This document shows positions 31,519 through 33,407 of a DNA stretch of 54,659 nucleotides, one piece after another (positions within the stretch are counted from its first letter, which is position 1; each line of letters opens with the position of its first letter). The DNA lies in assembly GCA_902539145.1 (NCBI GenBank), contig CACBHX010000003.1, forward strand, positions 1 to 54,659, in the 5' to 3' direction. The notes under the pieces are model-generated. The model was not told where the DNA came from and did not search any database. It saw only the letters and a list, made by a program, of their open reading frames with translations. A program made the translations under genes and the position numbers. This stretch comes from an uncultured Pelagibacteraceae bacterium. Its GTDB lineage: Bacteria > Pseudomonadota > Alphaproteobacteria > Pelagibacterales > Pelagibacteraceae.

Positions 31519-32124
31519 ATGGTTAAAAACAATCTTGTATTTAAAGAAATAACTAGTTGTACTGATGAACAAATTAGAAAAATCAGAGATCTAAGAAATT
31601 CAGAAAATGTTAGAAAATTTATGTATACAGATCACATTATAACTGAACAAGAGCATCTAAATTATATTACAAAATTAAAGAATGATAAAAAAAATTTAGT
31701 CTTCATTATTTTTGATCATACAAATGAAACTATTGGATCAGCATATTTGTATTTTATTGATAGATTGCATAAAAAAGCTGACTGGGGATTTTATACTAAC
31801 CCAGAAATAAAAAATATTGGCGGTGTTATAGAATACTATTTTATTGAATTTTTTTTTAATCAACTAAACTTTGAAAAACTTAATTGTGAAATAACAGAAA
31901 ATAATTTTTCTACTTTAAAATTACATAAAAAATTTTTATTTGAAGAAGAGGGAATAAAAAAAGAAAATATAATAAAAAATAATAAAAGAATTAATGTTCA
32001 TTTTTATGGTTTAACAAAATCTAATTGGAATAATAGAAAATCAGAACTTTCAAAATTCAATAATTTATTTAACAAATATAGTGTGAAATTTGAATTTAAT
32101 AAAAATAATCTAAAATTAAAATAA
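31519..32124 (+). CDS. GNAT family N-acetyltransferase, resembles PseH-type (nucleotide-sugar amine) acetyltransferases
   Basis: RDLRNSENVRKFMYTDHIITEQEHLNYITKL...ADWGFYTNPE...NFSTLKLHKKFLFEEEG. Confidence 0.72.
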   Translation: MVKNNLVFKEITSCTDEQIRKIRDLRNSENVRKFMYTDHIITEQEHLNYITKLKNDKKNLVFIIFDHTNETIGSAYLYFIDRLHKKADWGFYTNPEIKNIGGVIEYYFIEFFFNQLNFEKLNCEITENNFSTLKLHKKFLFEEEGIKKENIIKNNKRINVHFYGLTKSNWNNRKSELSKFNNLFNKYSVKFEFNKNNLKLK

Positions 32125-32211
32125 TTATTGATAAATATAATATTTTGATTATTTAGGGGCGTTCTGTTGCCAGGTGCCCCAAAACCCCGTTTGCTTAATT
32201 AACAAAGTTAA

Positions 32212-32241
32212 TTAGGCAGCAAGTGCGTAACTTTCGTTAGC
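32212..32241 (-). other. tmRNA tag reading frame, ANESYALAA-stop
   Basis: Direct translation of minus strand; stop codon sits at the base of an 8-bp TAATTAAC/GTTAATTA hairpin. Confidence 0.9.
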
Positions 32242-32323
32242 AATTATAAATTAGCCCTTTGCGGAGGAACAATTCCGAACGAAAGAATAGCCTTTAGTCA
32301 CCCGTCGAATCTAGTTCACCCCC

Positions 32324-32335
32324 ATAAGTTGTAAA
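32324..32335 (-). other. tmRNA intervening segment between acceptor piece (ends 32336) and coding piece (starts 32323)
   Basis: 12 nt between encoded CCA and the 5' GGGGGTG. Confidence 0.8.
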
Positions 32336-32419
32336 TGGTGGAGGTGGTGGGTACTGCCCCCACGTCCGCAATGGTTATTACGAAATTCGTTTATCGTCAT
32401 AGTTGGAAAACCAACATGT

Positions 32420-32449
32420 TTAATATAAAAGTAATTCTTGAAGATTCAA
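32420..32449 (-). promoter_or_regulatory. Candidate tmRNA promoter (TTGAAT-18-TATTAA)
   Basis: Box positions predict a start near the GTTGGttttCCAAC hairpin at the acceptor-piece 5' end. Confidence 0.5.
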
Positions 32450-32459
32450 TAAATTATTC

Positions 32460-33407
32460 ATGAAATTAACTAAGGAACAACAACAAGAAATTAAAGATCA
32501 ACAGTCTCAAGAAAATAAGACAAAGAGAGTTACTGTAGCGGAACTAGAAAATATTCTTTACGAGGCAATACCCATTTTAGATCATGGTTTTATAAGAGTG
32601 ATTGATTATATGGGTGATGACACATCTATAGTTCAAGCAGCAAGAGTCTCCTATGGAAAAGGTACTAAGAAAGTTTCAACTGACTCTGGTTTGATAAAAT
32701 ATTTAATGAGGCACTGGCACAGTACTCCATTTGAAATGTGTGAAATTAAATATCATGTTAAACTTCCAATTTTTATTGCTAGACAATGGATTAGACATAG
32801 AACCGCTAATGTAAATGAATATTCCGCAAGATATTCTATTTTAGATAAAGAGTTTTATCTTCCTGCTATAGAAAATTTAGCAGCTCAATCTCAAAGCAAC
32901 AGACAGGGAAGAGGAGATGTTCTCTCGGGAGATCAGGCAAAAAAAGTTTTAGATTTATTAAAAAAAGATGCAGAACAAACTTATGATAATTACGAAACTA
33001 TGCTTAATGAGAGATATGATGGCTCCGTAATTGATGAAAAACAAGTTGGTTTAGCAAGAGAACTAGCAAGAATGAATTTAACTTTAAATACTTATACTCA
33101 ATGGTACTGGAAAACAGATCTCCTGAACTTGATGAACTTTTTAAGATTAAGAGCTGATCATCACGCTCAATATGAAATAAGAGCTTACGCAGATGCAATG
33201 TTGGATACTGTTAAAAGATGGGTACCGATTACTTATGAGGCATTTTTAGATTATAGAGTGGGTGGAACAGAGGTATCCTCAAAAGGAAAAAAGATAATAC
33301 AAAAACTCATCAGTGGTGAAAAAGTAGATGCTGAAAAGTCTGGCTTATCAAAAAGAGAGTGGAATGAGCTCATGTCTGCTTTAGAGCTTAAAGATAAATT
33401 GATTTAA
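32460..33407 (+). CDS. thyX: FAD-dependent thymidylate synthase ThyX
   Basis: [19 protein letters not shown] (ThyX motif RHRxxSxNExSxRY variant). Confidence 0.95.

Follow-up and report, generated by a model that had tools for sequence, protein, structure and literature searches.

A circularly permuted ssrA gene beside thyX in a SAR11 bacterium and the recurrence of its 3' end in relatives

The window, i.e., the whole stretch of DNA that was analysed (54,659 nucleotides), carries an ssrA locus on the minus strand between two plus-strand genes, which are given here as context only. The divergent neighbour is thyX (32460..33407; Pfam Thy1, E 1.3e-56), and the neighbour convergent with ssrA is a GNAT acetyltransferase gene (31519..32124; Pfam Acetyltransf_3, E 1.9e-7). 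When all of Rfam was searched against the whole window with cmscan, RF01849 (alpha_tmRNA) and RF04321 (tmRNA_permuted) each gave a single match. The RF01849 match, at 32453-32152, spanned the full model (positions 1-355) with 224.2 bits and an E value of 1e-63, exceeding the gathering cut-off of 50 bits. The RF04321 match also covered the entire model (133.2 bits, E 6e-26), and no notable difference from that family was seen. Furthermore, ARAGORN independently called a permuted tmRNA at 32430-32121 on the same strand, with the tag ANESYALAA. The permuted order of acceptor piece, spacer and coding piece was found in the sequence itself, in the ARAGORN class (tmRNA*) and in the RF04321 match. 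The earlier note had read a two-piece circularly permuted tmRNA on the minus strand and had suggested alpha_tmRNA and the permuted mode of ARAGORN as checks; both were positive, the Rfam matches far beyond chance, and bear the reading out. The extent given there, 32156-32415, fell on the right locus but was too short, as the gene continues to a promoter-like element (32449-32422) on one side and to the end of the Rfam match (32152) on the other. The source assembly (629 kb, 65% complete) contained a single copy of ssrA.

The features of the gene were read along the minus strand. The promoter-like element (32422..32449) sits in the thyX-ssrA gap and consists of a -35 hexamer TTGAAT and a -10 hexamer TATATT, 16 nt apart. 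The pattern by itself was not above chance (4 found versus 3.5 expected); both hexamers were kept in nearly all the close relatives displayed, while the intervening bases varied. The 5' hairpin GTTGG-TTTT-CCAAC (32402..32415), which is among the pairs modelled in RF01849 and lies close to where the precursor presumably starts, was conserved in relatives with loop variants. According to the RF01849 and RF04321 alignments, the acceptor piece (the tRNA-like 3' part) occupies 32336..32398, with a putative 5' end at 32398. It comprises the T-stem GTGGG (32363-32359), the T-loop GGCAGTA (32358-32352), the 3' T-stem strand CCCAC (32351-32347), the acceptor strand CACCTCC (32346-32340), the discriminator A (A73, 32339) and the encoded CCA (32338-32336). 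It is followed by the 12-nt intervening spacer TTTACAACTTAT (32324..32335), the removal of which is expected.

The coding piece (32152..32323, reaching RF01849 model end 355) begins GGGGGTGAACTAGATTCGACGGG at 32323 and contains a D-like region, the tag frame and a 3' hairpin/pseudoknot. Its first seven bases (32323-32317) form the 5' acceptor strand GGGGGTG. The tag frame reported by ARAGORN (32212..32241), GCT AAC GAA AGT TAC GCA CTT GCT GCC TAA, encodes ANESYALAA with a hydrophobic end and a stop. The 3'-end hairpin GGGGCACCTGGCAACAGAACGCCCC (32156..32180) is a 25-mer that is single-copy in the source genome and recurs in relatives. The T-arm, acceptor strand, encoded ACCA, spacer and coding piece were all found where they had been noted, and so was the 7-bp acceptor stem with one G-T pair. 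This stem, GGGGGTG/CACCTCC, has its single G-U pair at G3-U70 in tRNA numbering. G3-U70 is the alanine identity pair recognised by AlaRS, so a G-U at this place is no defect but what one would expect. In addition, the minimum free energy fold of the strand (z -2.46) contained the T-arm, and in it the spacer formed the loop that closes the acceptor helix.

The nearest thyX neighbours belonged to SAR11 single-cell genomes and MAGs (Pelagibacteraceae), and the locus was compared across these and more distant relatives. Across the order, the alpha_tmRNA family was detected in 223 of 247 genomes (142 of the 149 of high quality), and across the class in 133/142. No alpha_tmRNA match was obtained in the SAR11 genomes G044, G112 and G121 despite completeness of 94-97%, which may reflect either an assembly gap or a genuine loss; SmpB was present in G044 along with a single copy of the 25-mer, of which G112 had none. 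A readable tmRNA core was present in 74 of 80 loci beside thyX. The T-stem was GTGGG/CCCAC in 74 SAR11 loci, CCGGG/CCCGG in the sister family and other alphaproteobacteria, and CAGGG/CCCTG in two. The acceptor stem alternated between GGGGGTG/CACCTCC and GGGGGCG/CGCCTCC, with G3-U70 kept. Both stems are thus backed by compensatory changes among relatives. The CCA was encoded in 127 of the 128 relatives read. The tag ANESYALAA was found in most close relatives, and similar short tags also occurred among relatives.

Two features that had been thought unusual proved to be shared. The letters of the T-loop had been read correctly, but the loop is not odd: GGC(A/G)GT(A/G) was found in 128/128 relatives read with a search pattern that itself required GGC(A/G)GT. 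This pattern matched all but 7 of the 135 loci to which it was applied, and a looser one gave the same loops. Similarly, the very short spacer is indeed 12 nt long, but this is a SAR11 trait; spacer lengths were 11-16 nt in SAR11, 6-7 nt in the sister family and 10-76 nt in 29 other alphaproteobacteria. Since relatives have the same T-loop and this range of spacers, neither feature is peculiar to the source gene.

The comparison also bears on whether the gene is active. A decayed, non-functional tmRNA pseudogene left near thyX might be suspected from a spacer below the Rfam consensus length and from SmpB, which was not found in the source assembly. However, the Rfam match is full-length, the tag frame, encoded CCA and stems are all intact, the gene is the sole ssrA copy in the assembly, and equally short spacers are common to dozens of SAR11 relatives. 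Across the order, SmpB was present in 82 of 97 genomes, and in 57 of the 59 of high quality; because it is common there and the assembly is just 65% complete, its absence is best read as incompleteness and carries little weight. Decay is accordingly extremely improbable. A tmRNA borne by a phage or island instead of being the host's own is hardly credible either, for although relatives of the SAR11 two-piece tmRNAs occur in marine phages (PMC9004378) and the ssrA 3' end resembles an integration hot spot in relatives, the position beside thyX is conserved over dozens of SAR11 genomes and this synteny, together with the sole copy in an assembly missing 35% of the genome, contradicts it. A phage origin was also tried as a candidate and rejected, with no match among 50,697 phage records. 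Judged from sequence, the minus strand at 32453-32152 is almost certainly a functional circularly permuted ssrA of the SAR11 (Pelagibacteraceae) bacterium.

Such a gene would be transcribed from the minus strand as one precursor. Enzymes of tRNA processing would cut it at two sites, just past the encoded CCA (32336) and in front of the G at 32323, freeing the 12 nt; the cleavage sites named in the earlier note, near 32323 and 32336, are those expected for a two-piece tmRNA. We infer this two-site cutting, and with it the two-piece processing of the source ssrA, from the established behaviour of the Caulobacter RNA and of the Rfam family. Both pieces would be held together by the 7-bp acceptor stem, and AlaRS would charge the acceptor end via the G3-U70 pair seen there. 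With SmpB, the RNA would then rescue stalled ribosomes and add the tag (A)ANESYALAA, the frame of which is present, marking the protein for proteolysis.

Split permuted tmRNA is carried by nearly all SAR11 and most alphaproteobacteria. The tmRNA next to thyX in 'Ca. Pelagibacter ubique' was reported as split and permuted in 2009 (PMC2704228), and a 2025 database holds 11,946 permuted tmRNAs (PMC11915505). The source gene resembles that of strain HTCC1062 (between SAR11_0010, thyX, and SAR11_0011; PMC2704228) in being SAR11, split, permuted and transcribed away from thyX. However, the downstream neighbour in HTCC1062 is COG4696, whereas the source locus has GNAT and then PPDK. The source gene also shares with RF01849 and the Caulobacter two-piece tmRNA the permuted order, the GGC(A/G)GTA T-loop, the encoded CCA, the 7-bp acceptor stem with G3-U70 and an alanine-rich tag ending in LAA. 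It differs from them in its short 12-nt spacer and short tag (9 encoded residues), and its length is 302 nt compared with 355 RF01849 model positions. The gene is an ordinary member of a known tmRNA family at a known place, and as such was already known. Identifying it fills in the annotation of a SAR11 genome and shows that the T-loop only seemed odd.

On the other side of ssrA, the GNAT gene lies between ssrA and PPDK. A tblastn search of 80 thyX loci of relatives found no GNAT counterpart beside ssrA, and in some of these loci PPDK directly follows ssrA. For these reasons the GNAT gene is probably a strain-specific local insertion at an ssrA 3' hot spot. A second copy of the 25-mer was not found elsewhere in the source assembly at up to 3 mismatches. 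A remnant of the repeat between GNAT and PPDK was also sought and rejected, as the best local match was no better than those in shuffled sequences (364/500 as good). Insertions may enter at the ssrA 5' end as well. In L065 (reverse complement, 3977 and 5754), the ssrA promoter and 5' hairpin have stayed next to thyX, whereas the full ssrA, with another 5' hairpin in front of it, lies 1.8 kb away. In L085 (reverse complement, 3976), thyX is flanked by just the 5' part of ssrA. The duplicated 5' hairpin was discarded as a second integration site, since it occurred in only 1/80 loci (L065).

Several SAR11 genomes gave weak extra alpha_tmRNA matches. These proved to be direct repeats of the final ~25-45 nt of the coding piece, located downstream of the gene in the same orientation. 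The 25-mer, with up to 2 mismatches, occurred in 160 of 197 Pelagibacteraceae genomes, and a reversed control pattern in none. By a hand count of the table, about 72 of the 197 had 2 to 6 copies, i.e., 1-5 extra ones, and the genomes with arrays include L162, L163, L164, L201, L202, L205 and L206. The copies were mostly direct, and the spacing between them was usually 0.3-3 kb and occasionally about 11-15 kb. They bounded small units, from a single gene to a few, in which the short cargo genes had their 3' ends mostly toward the tmRNA. Those few cargo genes that were tested encode, among others, a cupredoxin-like protein, surface-adhesin E, redoxin and an inverse autotransporter domain. Extra copies had a common left arm with the consensus GAATAATG.TA.AAAGTT, unlike that of the tmRNA. 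Moreover, 12 of 49 extra copies had a right flank matching that of a tmRNA copy from a different genome, and the match mostly began with the first bases past the core. Occupied sites (L077, L099) and empty ones (L070, L081, L097, L098) gave a clean comparison, with PPDK after the repeat in each.

The tyrosine recombinase family was looked for in 17 genomes, most of which had arrays, and no integrase adjoined an array; one such recombinase per genome was found in 15 of them, two in one and none in one. The repeats look as though a recombinase acting in trans had carried out site-specific integration at the 3' end of the permuted ssrA, which is the end that is not tRNA-like, and the 25-mer probably serves as the attachment site of a cassette array. 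That same end of permuted ssrA is, reportedly after Williams in 2003, used in cyanobacteria. Comparable repeats of a tRNA-Lys end are described in Methylophilaceae (PMC10872708). The literature searched, with most subscription journals outside its coverage, yielded no paper on ssrA-end cassettes in SAR11, and the docking-site role of the ssrA end in relatives seems the only fresh point here. These streamlined, very abundant ocean bacteria appear to dock small cargo units at the end of the tmRNA gene, which could help explain the exchange of surface and stress genes in compact genomes. The arrays in relatives are well supported, which the membership of the source GNAT gene in them is not. The fuller reading, in which the source 25-nt end (32180-32156, minus strand) is an attachment site of integrase-less, head-to-tail SAR11 cassettes moved in trans and GNAT is cargo whose far repeat was lost, is conceivable and on balance doubtful. 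In L165 (5212 on the reverse complement) and L204 (14948), a copy of the 25-mer with cargo behind it stood apart from any full ssrA and instead lay downstream of a pnp-like gene, at a distance of a few hundred bases; this may be a second landing site.
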